The position numbers were made by a program, and so were the translations under genes. Below the pieces are notes generated by a model. That model was not told the origin of the DNA and made no database searches. It saw nothing but the letters and a program-made list of their open reading frames with translations. From Hyphomicrobiales bacterium (lineage in GTDB: Bacteria; Pseudomonadota; Alphaproteobacteria; Rhizobiales; Rhizobiaceae), in contig UICE01000002.1 of the NCBI GenBank assembly GCA_900471815.1, positions 446,764 through 510,763 of the forward strand: a stretch of 64,000 nucleotides of DNA, written 5' to 3'. This document shows positions 659 to 53,953 of the stretch, in pieces. Within the stretch, counting starts at the first letter, position 1, and every line of letters starts with the position of its first letter.

Positions 659-2977
659 TTATCGAGAGCCGGAGGGGGAGCTTTGGTTGACCGCCCTCAA
701 TACGGCTTCGGGCGTTGCCGGACTATCCAGTTGCGGCACAGATCCGGCTATGGAAGCGATGGCATCGCGGACTGCCAGCCAGATGGAAATTCCAAGCATT
801 AAAGGCGGCTCACCAATGGCTTTTGAGCGGAACACCGTTTCCTCGCGGTTGGGCATATTATCAAGAATGCGGACATTGAAAATGGGCGGCACATCGCGTG
901 ATCCGGGTATTTTGTAAGTCGATGGGCCAACAGTCCTCAATCGCCCCGTCTTGTCCCACCAAAGCTCCTCGCAAGTTACCCAGCCCATGCCCTGCACGAA
1001 GGCGCCTTCGATCTGACCAAGATCAATAGCCGGATTGAGCGGTGAGCCGACATCCTGCAAAATATCGGCGCGCAGGCAGCGCGTCTCGCCGGTCAGCGTG
1101 TCAATGGCCACCTCCGCCACTGCCGCGCCATAGCTGAAATAAAAGAATGGCCTGCCCTTCATGGTCTTGCCATCCCAGTGGATTTTAGGCGTCGCATAGT
1201 GCCCCGCTTCCGAAAGCTGCACCCGTTTCGCCCAGGCCATTTTTGCCAGCTCGCCGAAGGAAACGGATCTATTATCCGCGTGAACCCGGCCTTCGCGGTA
1301 GATGATCACCTCTTCCTCAACGTCGAAATGTTCGGCAGCAACAGTGGTTAGACGGGCCTTGATCGCGGTCGCCGCCTTGAAGGCTGCCATGCCATTGAGA
1401 TCGGACCCCGTAGATGCCGCTGTCGCGCTGGTATTGGGTACTTTTCCCGTCGCAGTGGAGGAAATTCGCACCATATCCAGATCGACCTGAAACACTTCTG
1501 CCACGACTTGCGCCACTTTGACGAACAGGCCCTGCCCCATTTCCGTGCCACCATGGTTCAGGAAAATCGAACCATCCAGATAAACATGCACCAGCGCGCC
1601 CGCCTGATTGAGCGAGGTCAAATTGAATGAAATACCGAACTTCACCGGCATCATTGCCAGCCCGCGCCGGATAATTGGATTGGCGGCATTATGCGCATCG
1701 ATTTCGGCCCGTCGCTGCTGCCAGTCCGCCGAGGCAAGCACTGCGTCCGTCACCTCGACAAGGCGATTATCCTCAACCTTCTGGCCGTAAGGCGTGGTAT
1801 CGCCTGTCCCATCGCCATAATAATTGATCGCCCGCACCGCATTCGGATCAAGCTTTAATTCGCGCGCAATCGTGTCTATCACCGCCTCAATGGTGATGAT
1901 CCCTTGCGGTCCGCCAAAACCACGAAACGCCGTATTGGAAACCGTATTGGTTTTGCAGGCATGTCCCACAAAGCGCGCATTGGGAATGTGGTAGGAATTG
2001 TCCGTATGGGTCAGCGCCCGCGTAATGACCGGCCCCGTCAGGTCCGGCAGATTGCCCGCCCGCGCAAGATATTCCGCATCAAGTCCAAGGATGCGCCCGC
2101 GCCCATCCACGCCCACCTTCCAGTTGACAACGAAATCATGACGCTTGCCGGTTCCGGCCATATCGTCACGGCGTTTGAGCCGCACCTTGCATGGCTTGCC
2201 GGTCTTGGCAGAGATCAGCGCCGCAGCGCCAGCGATAATTGTCGGCTGGCTTTCCTTGCCGCCAAAGCCGCCCCCCATACGTCGCACCTGGCATTCCACG
2301 GCATTAGCGTGAATACCAAGGATACCAGCCACATGATGTTGCACTTCGGTCGGATGCTGCGTTGAGGAATGCACCAGCATTTCGCCATTTTCGCCCGGAA
2401 TGGCATAGGCAATATGGGTTTCGAGATAGAAATGGTCCTGACCGCCCATTTTGAGCTTGCCGGAAAAGACATGCGGCGCACTTGCCAGCGCTGCATCGAC
2501 ATCACCGTCAATGACCTCCTGTACCGGCACCACATAGTTTTTGCGTCGATGCGCTTCCTCAATATCAAGCACGGCTTCCAAAGGCTCAATATCCAGCTTG
2601 ACCTTTTTGGCAGCGCGATAGGCGGTTTCGAAATCACCGGCCGCAACCACCGCAATCACGCGGCCTTCATGGTCGACAATATCTTCGGCAAACAATGTCT
2701 CGCCGGTGTGGATCGGCCCAACCTCATTGTGACCCGGCACATCTTTCGCCGACCAGACACCCGCAACACCCGGCATTGCCAGCGCTTCGCTTGCGTCAAA
2801 GCCATTAAGCTTGCCATGCGCCACAGGCGAAAGCACAAAGACAGCATGCAATGTTCCCGGCAGTTCGGGCATATCGTCAATGTAATTGGCCTCGCCTGCT
2901 ACATGGCGCGCCGCGCTGTCATGGGCGATACCCTTGCCGACAATACTGCGTTGGACGATTTTGGGATCAATGTTCAT
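659..2977 (-). CDS. xdhB: xanthine dehydrogenase, molybdopterin-binding large subunit
   Basis: 772 residues. This subunit carries the molybdopterin cofactor and oxidises hypoxanthine and xanthine to urate in the cytoplasm. The N-terminal a/b hammerhead domain runs to about residue 130. The Mo-binding region carries GGGFGGKES, AFRGFGGPQG, GGTEMGQGLFVKVAQ and the C-terminal GEPPLMLGISIWLAVRDA, whose Glu is the expected catalytic base. Length matches bacterial XdhB. The ATG overlaps the xdhA stop by four bases (ATGA), so the two subunits are probably translationally coupled. xdhC, the usual Mo-cofactor chaperone gene, is not seen within the window. Function is confident; substrate is inferred from the purine-catabolic neighbours. 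Confidence 0.95.
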   Translation of the reverse strand: MNIDPKIVQRSIVGKGIAHDSAARHVAGEANYIDDMPELPGTLHAVFVLSPVAHGKLNGFDASEALAMPGVAGVWSAKDVPGHNEVGPIHTGETLFAEDIVDHEGRVIAVVAAGDFETAYRAAKKVKLDIEPLEAVLDIEEAHRRKNYVVPVQEVIDGDVDAALASAPHVFSGKLKMGGQDHFYLETHIAYAIPGENGEMLVHSSTQHPTEVQHHVAGILGIHANAVECQVRRMGGGFGGKESQPTIIAGAAALISAKTGKPCKVRLKRRDDMAGTGKRHDFVVNWKVGVDGRGRILGLDAEYLARAGNLPDLTGPVITRALTHTDNSYHIPNARFVGHACKTNTVSNTAFRGFGGPQGIITIEAVIDTIARELKLDPNAVRAINYYGDGTGDTTPYGQKVEDNRLVEVTDAVLASADWQQRRAEIDAHNAANPIIRRGLAMMPVKFGISFNLTSLNQAGALVHVYLDGSIFLNHGGTEMGQGLFVKVAQVVAEVFQVDLDMVRISSTATGKVPNTSATAASTGSDLNGMAAFKAATAIKARLTTVAAEHFDVEEEVIIYREGRVHADNRSVSFGELAKMAWAKRVQLSEAGHYATPKIHWDGKTMKGRPFFYFSYGAAVAEVAIDTLTGETRCLRADILQDVGSPLNPAIDLGQIEGAFVQGMGWVTCEELWWDKTGRLRTVGPSTYKIPGSRDVPPIFNVRILDNMPNREETVFRSKAIGEPPLMLGISIWLAVRDAIASIAGSVPQLDSPATPEAVLRAVNQSSPSGSR

Positions 2978-4389
2978 AGCGCCATGACCTCCACGGTCTC
3001 GCCCGCTACGTCGCGCCGAAATCGCTCCACAAGATTGGCTGCCACCTGCAATCGATATTCAGCGCTGCCGCGCCAATCGCTCAATGGCTTGAACCGCGCG
3101 GTAATGGCAGCGGCGCAGCTCTCTGCCGCGCGCCTGTCAAGCGCGGTTCCGACGAGCGCCTGTTCGGCCTCTATTGCCCGGATTGGTGTTGCCGCCATGC
3201 CGCCAAAAGCGATGCGGGCACTGCGGACCTGCCCTTCTTCGCGGAAAACTGAAAAAGCTCCGCAGACTGTCGAAATATCCTGATCATAGCGCTTGGAGAT
3301 TTTGTAGACGCGAAATGCTTGGCCCTCTTTGGGTTTGGGTATGGAGATCGAAGCAATTACCTCATTGGATCGCAATTCTGTTTTGCGGTAATCGAGGAAA
3401 AAATCCTCCAGCGACAGGAACCTGTGCCCGCTCAGCGACGCCAGTTCGATCTCCGCGCCAAGCGCGATCAAGGCGGGCGGGCCATCTCCGATGGGGCTTG
3501 CCGTGCCGATATTCCCGCCGATTGTCCCCATGGAGCGTATTTGTGTGGAACCGAACCGGCGAATAAGCGTGGCGAGCGAGGGATAATGCGCGCTTACCCG
3601 CGCCAGCACCTCTTCCCAGGTTACCGCCGCGCCAAAGCTCAAATGATTGTCGGTTTCGCAAATCTGGCGAAGTTCGCGCACCGATGCGAGCGCTATCACC
3701 TCATTCCAGTCCGTATGATAATCCGCTAGCGCAACACCAAGATCAGTGCCGCCCCCAAGCAAAATTGCTTCGGGCTTCTCGCTTCGCAGTGCTAAAAGTT
3801 CGTTCAGGGATGCCGGTTGATGAAAAACCGCCCCGCCATCCGATAGCATTGATTGCGGTTCGATCTCGGCAAAGGCAGCCACATGCGGCCCGGCAATCGC
3901 CGCTCCTCCGGCAGCAACCACCTTACGCGCCGCCTCGACAATTGGCCGATAGCCGGTACACCGGCAAAGATTGCCTGCCAGCGCATCATGAATGGCCTCG
4001 TCATCGGCCTGCGGATTAGACGCCGCAAGCCCGGCTAAGGACATGACAATTCCGGGAGTACAAAAACCGCATTGCGACGAACCGTTTTCCGCCATTGCCG
4101 CCTGTATCGGGTGTAGCTCGCCGGTTTTCAGCCCTTCCACCGTAACCAGCGCGCGCCCATCGATCTGGCCCATGGCAAGGATGCAGCTATTGGCCGCGTG
4201 ATATTTCACCTGATCGCCGTCAACATGACCGATCAGCACCGAACAGGCACCGCAATCACCCTCCGCACAGCCCTCCTTTGTGCCGGTCAGCCGCGGCACA
4301 TTGCGCAGCCAATCCAGCACCGTGGTATCGGGCCGCACATTGGCTTCATGAATTTGACCATTTAGAAAAAAACGAACGGAATTTGACAT
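2974..4389 (-). CDS. xdhA: xanthine dehydrogenase, FeS/FAD small subunit
   Basis: 471 residues from MSNSVRFFLNGQ; the open frame extends further upstream but only through repeat DNA, so I take the ATG at 4389. Domains in order: 2Fe-2S ferredoxin (CAEGDCGACSV near residue 45), a second 2Fe-2S helical domain (SQCGFCTPGIVMSLAG and NLCRCTGYRPIVEAA), then a FAD-binding domain (ILLGGGTDLGV near residue 210, with GSTQIRSMGTIGGNIG). It passes electrons from the molybdenum centre in XdhB to NAD. Coupled to xdhB by an ATGA overlap. The upstream DNA is a palindromic repeat cluster rather than a normal operon joint. Confidence 0.95.
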   Translation of the reverse strand: MSNSVRFFLNGQIHEANVRPDTTVLDWLRNVPRLTGTKEGCAEGDCGACSVLIGHVDGDQVKYHAANSCILAMGQIDGRALVTVEGLKTGELHPIQAAMAENGSSQCGFCTPGIVMSLAGLAASNPQADDEAIHDALAGNLCRCTGYRPIVEAARKVVAAGGAAIAGPHVAAFAEIEPQSMLSDGGAVFHQPASLNELLALRSEKPEAILLGGGTDLGVALADYHTDWNEVIALASVRELRQICETDNHLSFGAAVTWEEVLARVSAHYPSLATLIRRFGSTQIRSMGTIGGNIGTASPIGDGPPALIALGAEIELASLSGHRFLSLEDFFLDYRKTELRSNEVIASISIPKPKEGQAFRVYKISKRYDQDISTVCGAFSVFREEGQVRSARIAFGGMAATPIRAIEAEQALVGTALDRRAAESCAAAITARFKPLSDWRGSAEYRLQVAANLVERFRRDVAGETVEVMAL

Positions 4390-4473
4390 GATATCAGCTT
4401 CATCCGCCAATGTGATCGCGTCAAGAGGGCGTGAGCAGAACCGGGTGGATGATTTAGCTGCAATAACAGAGTT

Positions 4474-4592
4474 GCGTGGTTCGACAAGCTCACCATGAGG
4501 AAGGTTGGGGCTGCAAGATAAACTCGGAGCGGCAGGATTTAGCTCCTTGCAATCAACCCTCTCCCTCATGGTGAGCTTGTCGAACAACGCAC
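4474..4592. repeat. palindromic intergenic repeat, cluster A
   Basis: Two inverted arms flank a spacer of about 55 bp. The left arm (4474-4505) reads GCGTGGTTCGACAAGCTCAC and on to CATGAGG; the right arm (4559-4592) is its near-complement, with one change (CGAACAACGC for CGAACCACGC). The spacer has smaller inverted pieces (GGTTG/CAACC, CTGCAAG/CTTGCAA), so the whole element can fold as one long hairpin. The same arms recur in clusters B, C and D of this window. It lies between the GIY-YIG gene and xdhA. Confidence 0.85.
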
Positions 4593-4636
4593 CACCGCAA
4601 ATGCAAACCAGAGCTTGCGGGCGAACCACGCACAAC

Positions 4637-4936
4637 TCAGGCGCTATGAGTTTTCCGGCGATTTTTGGACACCTCAGGCAAACCTTCGTAATTCAGTGCA
4701 ATGAGAGCCTGCTTCTTCACCCGTGACCAGCCTTTGATTTGCCGTTCACGTGCTATTGCATCAAGAATGCGATCATAGGTTTCAGTAAAAACAAGTTCTA
4801 CAGGTCGCTGGTGTTTGGTATATCCATCACAGATTCCGGCATTATGTTCCCAAACCCGGGCTTCAATTTCTTGCTTCGTTAATCCGGTATAATAAGAACC
4901 ATCAGAACATCTTAGAATGTAAACCGTTGCCTCCAT
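4637..4936 (-). CDS. single-domain GIY-YIG nuclease family protein
   Basis: 99 residues, the size of the UPF0213/YhbQ-like single-domain GIY-YIG group. The GIY-YIG signature is relaxed: VYILRCSDGSYYTGLT near the N-terminus, then RVWEHNAG with the catalytic-type Arg, KHQRPVELVFTE, and ARERQIKGWSRVKK carrying the conserved Glu and metal-site region. The start at 4936 has a good GGGAG ribosome site six bases away. Substrate and role of this family are uncertain; relatives cleave DNA or branched structures. The gene sits inside the purine-degradation block but is flanked on both sides by copies of one palindromic repeat, which suggests arrival with, or mobilisation by, the repeat rather than a role in purine metabolism. 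Confidence 0.85.
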   Translation of the reverse strand: MEATVYILRCSDGSYYTGLTKQEIEARVWEHNAGICDGYTKHQRPVELVFTETYDRILDAIARERQIKGWSRVKKQALIALNYEGLPEVSKNRRKTHSA

Positions 4937-5010
4937 TCAGTCTCCCATGCTTGAAACTGAAAGTATAAACAGACGGTCACCGGTCGAGCAATTATACCAA
5001 AGTTGCATCT

Positions 5011-5146
5011 GCGCTGTGCGTGGTTCGACAAGCTCACCATGAGGGAGGTTGAGAGTGGCAGGGAGTCTAGTTTGGGGACGTCGCAGATAACTATTTGCAA
5101 TCCAACCACCTCCCTCATGGTGAGCTTGTCGAACCACGCACAGCGC
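5011..5146. repeat. palindromic repeat cluster B with a perfect 39-bp inverted repeat
   Basis: Left arm 5011-5049 and right arm 5108-5146 are exact reverse complements over 39 bp (starting GCGCTGTGCGTGGTTCGACA). They enclose 58 bp that carries a further GGTTG/CAACC pair. It is the longest and cleanest copy of the family in the window. It lies between allA and the GIY-YIG gene and could form a long RNA hairpin or a DNA cruciform. Short open frames that read FDKLTMRE or LPHGELVEPR here are translations of the repeat, not genes. Confidence 0.9.
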
Positions 5147-5160
5147 AGGAGCAATCAGTC

Positions 5161-5210
5161 ACCTCGCTCATGGTGAGGTATGCTGAGCCTTTCGAAGAAC
5201 GAGCCACGCA
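5161..5210. repeat. additional half-copy of the palindromic repeat
   Basis: A single right-type arm in variant form: CTCATGGTGAGGTATGCTGA, then CCTTTCGAAGAACGAGCCACGCA. Compared with the short arms it has an insert between GTGAG and the CGAA core; the same long variant occurs at 14692-14740. It directly follows cluster B and ends just before the 3' end of allA. Confidence 0.75.
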
Positions 5211-5228
5211 TTATGAGGTGCGCAGGTG

Positions 5229-5729
5229 CTAAACCGCTTCAATCCGAAAAATACGATCCGGCCAAAAATATTCTTCGAGATTATCGCCTTGGCCGCCGCG
5301 ATCCACCACCATGAAATCCGAGCTCTGCTCCAGCGATATCAGCGGATGGTGCCAGACATTGCGGTGGTAGTTCACGCCCTGGTTGCCCTGCACCAAAAAT
5401 GCTACCGGATTTGCGGGTTTGCCGCCCGCATCTTCGCCCACGACGACTAAAAACGGCCTGTTCTGCAATGGATAGAATGCCTGGCTGCCGAGTGGATGCC
5501 GCTCCAGCATATGGATATCGATGGGAGGGGTAAAAGCCTGTCCGCGAAAAATATTGATCAGGACGCGCGGCTGATCACCGGCCACGTCAACCTTGGCAAG
5601 GTCATGATAACGTTCTGTCGTACCACCATTGATCAGGCGCAGCTCCGCGCCCGCCACTTCAATCACATCGCCGAATGGCCCAAATGCTGCCTTGGTCAGC
5701 GGCTGAACATCAAGGGTGATGATGTTCAT
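5229..5729 (-). CDS. allA: ureidoglycolate lyase
   Basis: 166 residues from [12 protein letters not shown] at 5729; this is the usual length of AllA, so the upstream extension in the same frame is rejected. It converts ureidoglycolate to glyoxylate and urea. The cupin-type family motifs seen are [48 protein letters not shown] and the late VWHHPLISL, giving the conserved His and Glu residues. The start lies inside the 3' end of puuE with a 20-bp overlap, so translation is probably coupled to it. The next downstream DNA is repeat cluster B. Confidence 0.93.
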
Positions 5730-14602: not shown

Positions 14603-14740
14603 TGCGGGGTTCGACAAGCTCCCCATGAGGAAGAATGATCGTCTGCATGATGGTTTGCCTTCGCAGACTTCGCGCTCCCTGCAATTAACTCCATTCCTCA
14701 TGGTGAGCTATCTTGAGCTTGCCGAAGGGCGAACCACGCA
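14603..14740. repeat. palindromic intergenic repeat, cluster C
   Basis: Left arm 14603-14633 (GCGGGGTTCGACAAGCTCCC then CATGAGGAAG). Right arm 14692-14740 in the long variant: TTCCTCATGGTGAGCTATCT, then TGAGCTTGCCGAAGGGCGAACCACGCA. The spacer is about 58 bp, as in clusters A and B. It lies between the aminotransferase and the epimerase-like gene. Confidence 0.8.
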
Positions 14741-53825: not shown

Positions 53826-53953
53826 GTGCGCGCCTTCGACAAGCTCAGGATGAGGGAGGTCGGTTGATTGCAGGGCGCCAACTCTTGCAACGCTAGCGAG
53901 TTGTCGCTGCAACCCACAAAACTTCCCTCATGGTGAGCTTGTCGAACCACGCA
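53826..53953. repeat. palindromic intergenic repeat, cluster D
   Basis: Left arm 53826-53859 is a variant (GTGCGCGCCTTCGACAAGCT, then CAGGATGAGGGAGG). Right arm 53921-53953 (ACTTCCCTCATGGTGAGCTT, then GTCGAACCACGCA) is the standard form. Spacer about 60 bp. Confidence 0.8.

Follow-up and report, generated by a model that had tools for sequence, protein, structure and literature searches.

Single-domain GIY-YIG nuclease genes flanked by two kinds of hairpin repeat: a candidate REP system with a nuclease in the place of the RAYT

Introduction

The described systems closest to the locus reported here are the REPtrons, in which a RAYT, a tyrosine transposase of the HUH/Y1 kind, goes with GTAG REPs and REPINs, the CGTC REPs, and the GIY-YIG homing endonucleases of the I-TevI kind, in which a nuclease behaves as a mobile gene. 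RAYTs are described as single-copy and vertically inherited (PMC8049555). The CGTC REPs are, according to Di Nocera et al. (2013, PMC3733652), mostly alphaproteobacterial repeats with a CGTC or TGTC tag, a stem starting with AT, a short loop and a CCA tail, arranged in inverted pairs, and their superfamily takes in dRS3 of Neisseria and RPE-4 and RPE-6 of Rickettsia. In the same paper the superfamily is apparently without a dedicated transposase, CGTC repeats flank none of the tyrosine transposase genes, and the term 'GIY' does not occur in the main text.

Among the titles and abstract openings listed from the open PMC literature we found no link of GIY-YIG proteins with REPs, and the open PMC text returned nothing for GIY-YIG together with dRS3 or for the core sequence of the repeat described below. 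In two further papers, a RayT and a GIY-YIG gene are named in one table, unlinked (PMC9465073), and GIY-YIG nucleases of unknown function are noted (PMC10928387).

Here we analyse a stretch of 64,000 nucleotides (the window; positions 446,764 to 510,763 of its contig) from a Hyphomicrobiales bacterium that, judging from its closest named relatives, is probably Phyllobacterium-like. A sequence-only reading of the window had suggested a REP system in which a GIY-YIG enzyme stands in for the RAYT, a proposal that gains support from the association reported below and from a genome in which no RAYT was found. The link of a sister branch of the enzyme to the CGTC REPs goes beyond that proposal.

Results

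A GIY-YIG gene enclosed by two inverted repeat pairs

A single-domain GIY-YIG endonuclease gene of 99 aa lies on the minus strand at 4637..4936, as an open reading frame whose product matches the Pfam profile PF01541 with 53.3 bits (cut-off 22.6). Both neighbours are minus-strand reading frames: on the left 2974..4389, supported by its start and by conservation across the genus, and on the right 5229..5729, conserved across the genus and with an approximate start. Following the earlier reading, we take the former to be xdhA-like (small subunit of xanthine dehydrogenase) and the latter to be allA-like (ureidoglycolate lyase). The gap between them, from 4389 to 5229, holds the GIY-YIG gene with one inverted repeat pair on each side.

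The gene is thereby enclosed by two inverted pairs of the TTCGACAAGCTCA hairpin repeat, which we call the TTCGA repeat. The left pair has its outer unit at 4473..4507 (plus strand) and its inner unit, inverted to it, at 4554..4592 (minus strand), and a fragment of the repeat foot (CGAACCACGCAC...) is found at the stop end of the gene (4622..4640). In the right pair the inner unit occupies 5017..5051 (plus strand) and the outer unit 5103..5141 (minus strand), followed by a degenerate further unit on the minus strand at 5151..5200, whose end is approximate and whose first part (5151-5177) matches at 81% over 27 nt. The arms 5003-5049 and 5108-5154 are 96% complementary over 47 nt. The clusters of repeats that the sequence-only reading had seen on both sides of the gene each hold an inverted pair. 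The two intergenic sites where it had placed the same repeat with no nuclease gene also exist as inverted pairs, at 14610..14709 (arms 14617-14632 and 14694-14709) and at 53835..53946 (arms 53835-53860 and 53921-53946).

A count of the repeat over the genome, called for by the same reading, gave 74 copies of the core TTCGACAAGCTCACCATGAG (20 nt, up to 2 mismatches) in 4.6 Mb, against 0 for the reversed control. Going through the positions by eye, we could group 48 of these copies into 24 inverted pairs, in each of which a plus copy is followed by a minus copy, 64-100 bp from start to start. A chance origin of the repeats was ruled out by the empty control and by the nearly empty distal blocks of the loci described below. 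Searches for known RNA elements in the window (Rfam, at gathering scores), known defence genes (PADLOC) and known phage families (PHROGs, E 0.01) gave no match, and these candidates were set aside.

On reading the window units we saw no GTAG tag beside them, and the own genome has no match to the Y1/RAYT family (PF01797). The units do not fit the features of CGTC REPs either (CGTC/TGTC tag, AT stem start, loop of 4-5 nt, CCA tail), and the strict CGTC pattern has 0 copies in this genome. The AlphaFold2 model of the 99-aa protein has a pLDDT of 86. Its nearest solved folds are the UPF0213 NMR structures 1zg2 and 1ywl (E 1e-6 and 3e-4), and the next structural match is Slx1, a structure-specific nuclease (E about 0.01). 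No NCBIfam family matched the protein at E 0.001.

The hairpin accompanies the gene in its relatives

We collected 80 named loci of related proteins (set B; 53-88% identity), chosen by protein alone. A TTCGA hairpin was found within 500 bp of the gene in 70 of them (72 with slightly different flank windows) and on both sides in 48, compared with 17 of 1,169 distal blocks of 500 bp. Genes of this subfamily are thus flanked by the repeat far beyond what chance would give, a check that the sequence-only reading had called for, and since 70 of the 80 relatives carry the hairpin, the subfamily is not one that mostly occurs with no repeat nearby. The hairpin detectors were written after the repeats had been seen, so a search that assumes no motif and the Pfam-based sample described below weigh more. 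In the former, de novo inverted repeats were recovered in the 500-bp flanks of the 80 loci upstream in 47, downstream in 49 and on both sides in 36, against 32 of 1,109 distal blocks.

The units themselves point to a constraint on their folded form. In 166 distinct TTCGA units, chosen by exact loop only, the two loop-adjacent pairs are Watson-Crick in 96%, compared with 47-49% expected from the make-up of the columns, GC and CG occurring in similar numbers (85/72 at pair 1 and 87/71 at pair 2, that is, GG/CC or CC/GG). Furthermore, a G.T at pair 4 is retained in 61% of units. As the loop-adjacent pairs covary and the G.T is kept, the data favour one folded strand as the object of constraint. 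The 140-nt pair 5011-5150 folds strongly as DNA (z = -15.9), and some single hairpins fold well on their own (z -5.1 in L113 and -3.9 in L042), others less well (z -1.1 to -1.9 in L036, L039 and L067). Four single arms of the window fold weakly (z 0.0 to -1.1), which speaks against a mobilising role.

Two branches of the enzyme go with two kinds of repeat

We searched 115 class-level and 120 phylum-level genomes with the PF01541 profile and read, among the matches listed, 154 loci, nearly all with short frames (set A). Longer frames for which no locus was made are left out of this set, as are some short frames (for example G183:C3, G137:C1:1960079 and G156:C59), and one of its genes, L261, is the same as L061 of set B. 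Two kinds of hairpin were enriched at its flanks: of 302 flanks, 34 had a CGTC-type hairpin and 12 a TTCGA hairpin, compared with 5 and 3 of the 665 distal blocks. When the flanks were read in reverse, the detectors fired at 0 (CGTC) and 2 (TTCGA) of the 154 loci. In a control with UvrC genes of genomes from the same sample, of which 20 of 22 loci were parsed, neither hairpin was present in 40 flanks. A repeat shared by both flanks with a score of 16 or more was found in 1 of 90 distal pairs and 0 of 20 UvrC loci.

Tree 1 was built from 177 proteins over 96 columns, with 153 of the 154 set A proteins and 23 of the 80 set B loci; it has a midpoint root and many unresolved forks. One fork, at 97% SH-aLRT, splits it into 67 and 110 rows. 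On the 67-row side, 66 genes are without repeats and 1 (L224) has a CGTC hairpin, which tells against mobilisation by the enzyme. The other side consists of two branches. In the TTCGA branch (39 rows, 84% support) 30 genes have TTCGA hairpins, 4 have other shared repeats, 5 have none and 0 have CGTC hairpins; in the CGTC branch (71 rows, 98% support) 24 have CGTC hairpins, 29 other shared repeats, 18 none and 0 TTCGA hairpins. Considering set A only, the repeat side has flanking repeats at 63 of 86 genes and the opposite side at 1 of 67 (Fisher p 3.5e-22, a value that ignores kinship). Strict matches divide completely, with 24 CGTC and 0 TTCGA in the CGTC branch and 0 and 8 in the TTCGA branch (p 9.5e-8, again ignoring kinship). 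In tree 2 (219 rows, midpoint root) the repeat side has 92% support and the TTCGA rows form two groups, of 24 and 29 rows, with 83% each. Both trees rest on fewer than 100 columns, and L113 and L334, which are the same gene, both stand in tree 2. Our results thus firmly establish a specific association, in two branches, of enzyme subfamily with repeat type.

The association has exceptions that count against mobilisation by the enzyme: 23 of the 86 set A genes on the repeat side are without a flanking repeat by the tests used, and 47 of the 71 CGTC-branch genes have no strict CGTC match. By eye, many of the 'other shared' repeats (for example L161, L153 and L126) resemble CGTC units that miss the strict rules.

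These data also bear on the idea that the repeats are bidirectional terminators or mRNA-stabilising hairpins around small intergenic genes, on which the nuclease would be inactive. We consider this very unlikely. Indeed the pair beside the gene forms a strong stem-loop and the sites that we read lie between genes; yet hairpins of such a function should avoid neither the UvrC flanks (0 of 40) nor the small GIY-YIG genes on the opposite side of the tree (1 of 67), nor should each enzyme branch have its own repeat with no crossover in strict matches.

The Tyr, Arg and Glu of the GIY-YIG domain are its catalytic residues. An alignment of 31 TTCGA-branch proteins shows no variation at Y16, G18, R27, H31 and E64, and 71 of 71 CGTC-branch domains retain R, H and E. 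With this conservation, a working nuclease is expected.

The gene left out of tree 1, L201 (G000:C8:160095-160307), is the own genome's second small GIY-YIG gene. It has an internal stop and is of the CGTC-branch type by motif. No strict CGTC or TTCGA hairpin was found in its 6.2-kb locus, and this gene and the CGTC repeat family may have decayed together in the own genome.

The sister branch and the CGTC REPs

The repeats at the flanks of the sister branch match the described features of CGTC REPs in tag, AT stem start, short loop, CCA tail and arrangement in inverted pairs. In four loci (L118, L138, L158 and L221) there is exactly one strict CGTC unit on each side: a plus unit 42-82 bp upstream of the domain and a minus unit 1-85 bp downstream of the stop. 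The gene thus takes the position of the spacer in a normal pair. This arrangement is not general: strict CGTC units are present on both sides in 11 of the 24 genes with a match, and the nearest units are plus and minus in only 7 of these 11. Given the CGTC features at its flanks, and REPs that apparently have no dedicated transposase, the sister GIY-YIG branch would be the best candidate for the missing partner of the CGTC REPs.

Copy number and repeat subtype follow the gene

Gene presence in the 115 genomes of the class was read among the PF01541 matches listed, and hence some genomes counted as without the gene may hold weak matches. With this scope, at least two copies of the TTCGA pattern were found in 10 of 11 genomes with a TTCGA-branch gene listed, compared with 13 of 104 without (p 1.5e-7; the pattern covers the CC/GG subtype only and lets some chance matches pass). 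At least two strict CGTC copies were found in 17 of 33 genomes with a CGTC-branch gene listed, compared with 7 of 82 without (p 1.4e-6). Conversely, and against mobilisation by the enzyme, 16 of these 33 genomes have fewer than two strict CGTC copies.

We also compared the subtype of the repeat beside the gene with that of the rest of the genome. The ACC/AGG loop-closing subtype beside the gene was that of the genome's majority in 19 of 19 unmixed genomes, out of 24 searched; the five set aside had mixed flanks (L057 and L066) or neither pattern (L043, L048 and L110). The counts of the two subtypes are 45/5 in the own genome, 279/32 in that of L034 and 14/32 in that of L036, and the majority is thin in those of L051 (37/34) and L069 (8/5). 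In the genomes of L063 and L113 no copies were found besides the 3 and 2, respectively, that lie at the gene.

That the repeats are moved by a RAYT or another transposase, the GIY-YIG genes hitching a ride, is the least plausible of the readings that we weighed. Some repeat-rich genomes do hold Y1 transposases (G087 and G012, for example), but the Y1 family, the only one sought, is absent from the own genome, from 10 of the 11 class genomes with at least 10 TTCGA copies and from 9 of the 11 with at least 10 CGTC copies. Di Nocera et al. (2013, PMC3733652), moreover, report no tyrosine transposase gene with CGTC repeats at its flanks.

A more serious alternative is that the repeats spread by other means and that a GIY-YIG gene of the homing type cuts repeat pairs and inserts itself into them. 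The enzyme would then still read the hairpin, and the repeats would be its address and not its cargo. Several CGTC-branch genes indeed sit between the halves of an inverted pair, and some repeat-holding genomes have no gene among the matches listed: G105 (84 TTCGA and 40 CGTC copies) and G094 (38 CGTC) lack a matching-branch gene among those matches, as do, for the TTCGA branch, the TTCGA-rich genomes G064 (30 copies), G071 (24), G016 (13), G004 (12) and G093 (10). These repeat-rich genomes also count against mobilisation by the enzyme. G105 and G094 have only one PF01541 match each, whose place and length lie outside the rows listed. Homing into existing pairs needs an extra reason, however, for the matching repeat being far commoner in genomes with the gene and for the repeat subtype following the gene's own flank, and a search limited to the Y1 family brought up no further enzyme to which their spread could be credited. 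We judge it less likely than mobilisation by the nuclease.

One joint in three states and a gene at many places

The allA-xdhA joint was compared in 20 genomes of the genus, the own one included (L305 and L309 were left out of the table). Two of the 20 hold repeats and GIY-YIG gene, namely the own genome, with 842 bp, and G226. A pair alone is found in five, of the TTCGA kind in three (L293, degenerate, L296 and L304; 245-267 bp) and by eye CGTC-like in two (L297 and L298). Eleven have neither: nine gaps of 50-132 bp and two longer ones (L294 and L308). The joint without the gene measures 67-70 bp in six relatives, and joints without the insert are too diverged to give its exact ends. In the comparison suggested by the sequence-only reading, the joint thus occurs empty, with a pair alone or with repeats and gene, an insertion polymorphism of gene and repeat pairs that speaks for mobilisation. 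The 3 of 20 genomes in which the TTCGA pair stands without the gene speak against it, and they bear on that reading's condition for refutation, namely repeats shared by strains that always lacked the gene; these three may or may not have had it once. Repeat pairs alone at this joint also suit the possibility that the gene homes into them. The site seems to collect repeats; by eye, the joint of L308 holds another inverted repeat, of the TTAGCCTCTTTGCTAA type, unrelated to both REP kinds.

The closest genome of the genus with the block is G226 (L291, 1-1440), where the gene is inverted compared with the window and an extra ORF precedes allA. In L064 the window's neighbours are found with sides swapped. 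Recombination between the inverted pairs would give the opposite orientation in both.

The gene is found in many other places. The window and the 80 set B loci fall into 34 neighbourhood clusters (single linkage at 40% identity), a number raised by short loci, 14 of the 80 having under 3 kb on one side. Among six named Phyllobacterium and the window, the gene stands at five places. Some neighbourhoods are common to different genera, so long stays also happen.

Bacteroidota and a third branch linked to tRNA genes

The same layout of gene and repeats was found in L113, from a Flavobacteriales MAG, and in L110, from a KSB1 MAG; as both are MAGs, they may be misbinned. Small GIY-YIG genes are numerous in 61 genomes from the phylum of L113, taken as Bacteroidota, and some genomes have several copies. 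We sampled 42 of the many short matches (set C: 30 automatic loci and 12 of 20 further stretches). Of eight array stretches, L350 and L351 were read, L352-L355 were scanned for tRNAs only, and L356-L357 were left out. A repeat shared by both flanks with a score of 16 or more was present in 32 of the 42 (25 of the 30 automatic loci) and in 0 of 34 distal pairs; some of these shared repeats are tRNA tails. In tree 2, the repeat side of 133 rows includes 23 from set C (7 TTCGA, 13 shared, 3 none), one of them the gene of L113 again.

On the other side of tree 2, a group of 48 rows with 92% support makes up a third branch. Of its genes, 24 (12 from each sample) follow a tRNA on the same strand within 200 bp. 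Examples are L329, L332, L344, L351 and L360 in the Bacteroidota set and L180, L193, L206 and L209 in set A. On the repeat side, by contrast, tRNA-following genes number 0 of 86 in set A and 0 of 80 in set B. In 4 of the 12 cases of the Bacteroidota set, the final 34 nt of the tRNA reappear, with 30 or more of them kept, no further than 40 nt past the gene's stop, which was seen in 0 of the 12 set A cases. These genes look like insertions within a tRNA gene or next to one. The T arm of tRNAs, GG-TTCGA-NN-CC, may resemble the TTCGA repeat core. Such behaviour at tRNA genes, with 24 of 48 genes behind a tRNA and 4 of 12 in the Bacteroidota set with a copy of its tail, is a further point for repeats that serve as an address.

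Two further arrangements were seen in the Bacteroidota set. L350 (G338:C34:6000-10600) has at 929-3824 a 364-bp unit repeated 7.9 times in tandem; the array contains eight small GIY-YIG-like frames, and the genome has 25 GIY-YIG matches. In L352 (G316:C44:91600-94300) two small GIY-YIG matches adjoin a tmRNA gene predicted by ARAGORN.

Discussion

We have observed that single-domain GIY-YIG genes of two sister branches are each accompanied by their own kind of hairpin repeat. Our preferred explanation, which we think probable, is a REP system in which the nuclease is the dedicated, mobilising enzyme. The association suggests that the two branches may be the missing enzymes that spread their respective repeats. 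It is likely that the enzyme recognises and cleaves the hairpin. The data are best read as a spread of the repeats by the enzyme, a reading that we hold with moderate confidence; a use of the repeats as landing sites is the other reading.

In the mechanism that we propose, the nuclease would act on single-stranded or extruded DNA, where it would recognise the hairpin fold of the repeat, reading on one strand GG or CC, TTCGA, a short loop, TCA, and CC or GG. It would nick or cut the folded repeat, and copies would then spread via host repair or replication. GIY-YIG enzymes are not known to rejoin DNA, hence the host would have to supply the joining step. The autonomous form would be a repeat pair enclosing or neighbouring the gene, and the many inverted pairs without a gene would be the non-autonomous form, as REPINs are to RAYTs.

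More broadly, and as a tentative proposal to which we give rather less than even credence, single-domain GIY-YIG proteins could form a widespread mobile superfamily addressed to hairpins (CGTC REPs, TTCGA REPs and tRNA genes) that includes the missing enzymes of the CGTC REPs. The spreader of these REPs is left open by Di Nocera et al. (2013, PMC3733652), and a GIY-YIG partner would make the question testable. If the proposal is true, the simplest unit would be a repeat, a gene of 300 bp and an inverted repeat, about 400 bp in all, and such units would be among the smallest self-spreading DNA elements, present in Pseudomonadota, Bacteroidota and a KSB1 MAG. It would imply too that REP systems have more than one origin, with unrelated nuclease folds at their centre, and that a hydrolytic nuclease is able to sustain a repeat family. 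Many small genes annotated as GIY-YIG might then be mobile or domesticated parts of repeat systems and not repair enzymes.

The 99-aa protein shares its fold with the UPF0213/YhbQ-like proteins (1zg2, 1ywl); the genes that we presume to be YhbQ-like lie on the other side of the tree and, except for L224, are without flanking repeats by the tests used. The likeness to GIY-YIG homing endonucleases is that a GIY-YIG nuclease acts as a mobile gene. Homing endonucleases have a DNA-binding domain of their own, and their genes lie within the target gene or an intron. Here, on the other hand, the protein is a single domain of about 90-100 aa without a DNA-binding tail, the gene is intergenic, and its flanks are hairpin repeats found many times in the genome. 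The CGTC REPs are alike to the flanks of the sister branch and differ from the window's own repeats, which are of another type. Shared with REPtrons are short imperfect hairpins, mostly in inverted pairs and with many copies away from any gene, one small nuclease gene flanked by its repeats, and a repeat type that follows the enzyme type. The enzymes differ, an HUH/Y1 tyrosine transposase there and a GIY-YIG nuclease (PF01541) here, for which no covalent intermediate is expected. So does their distribution, since the RAYT is described as single-copy and vertically inherited whereas the GIY-YIG gene stands at many places and, in some genomes of the Bacteroidota set, in multiple copies.
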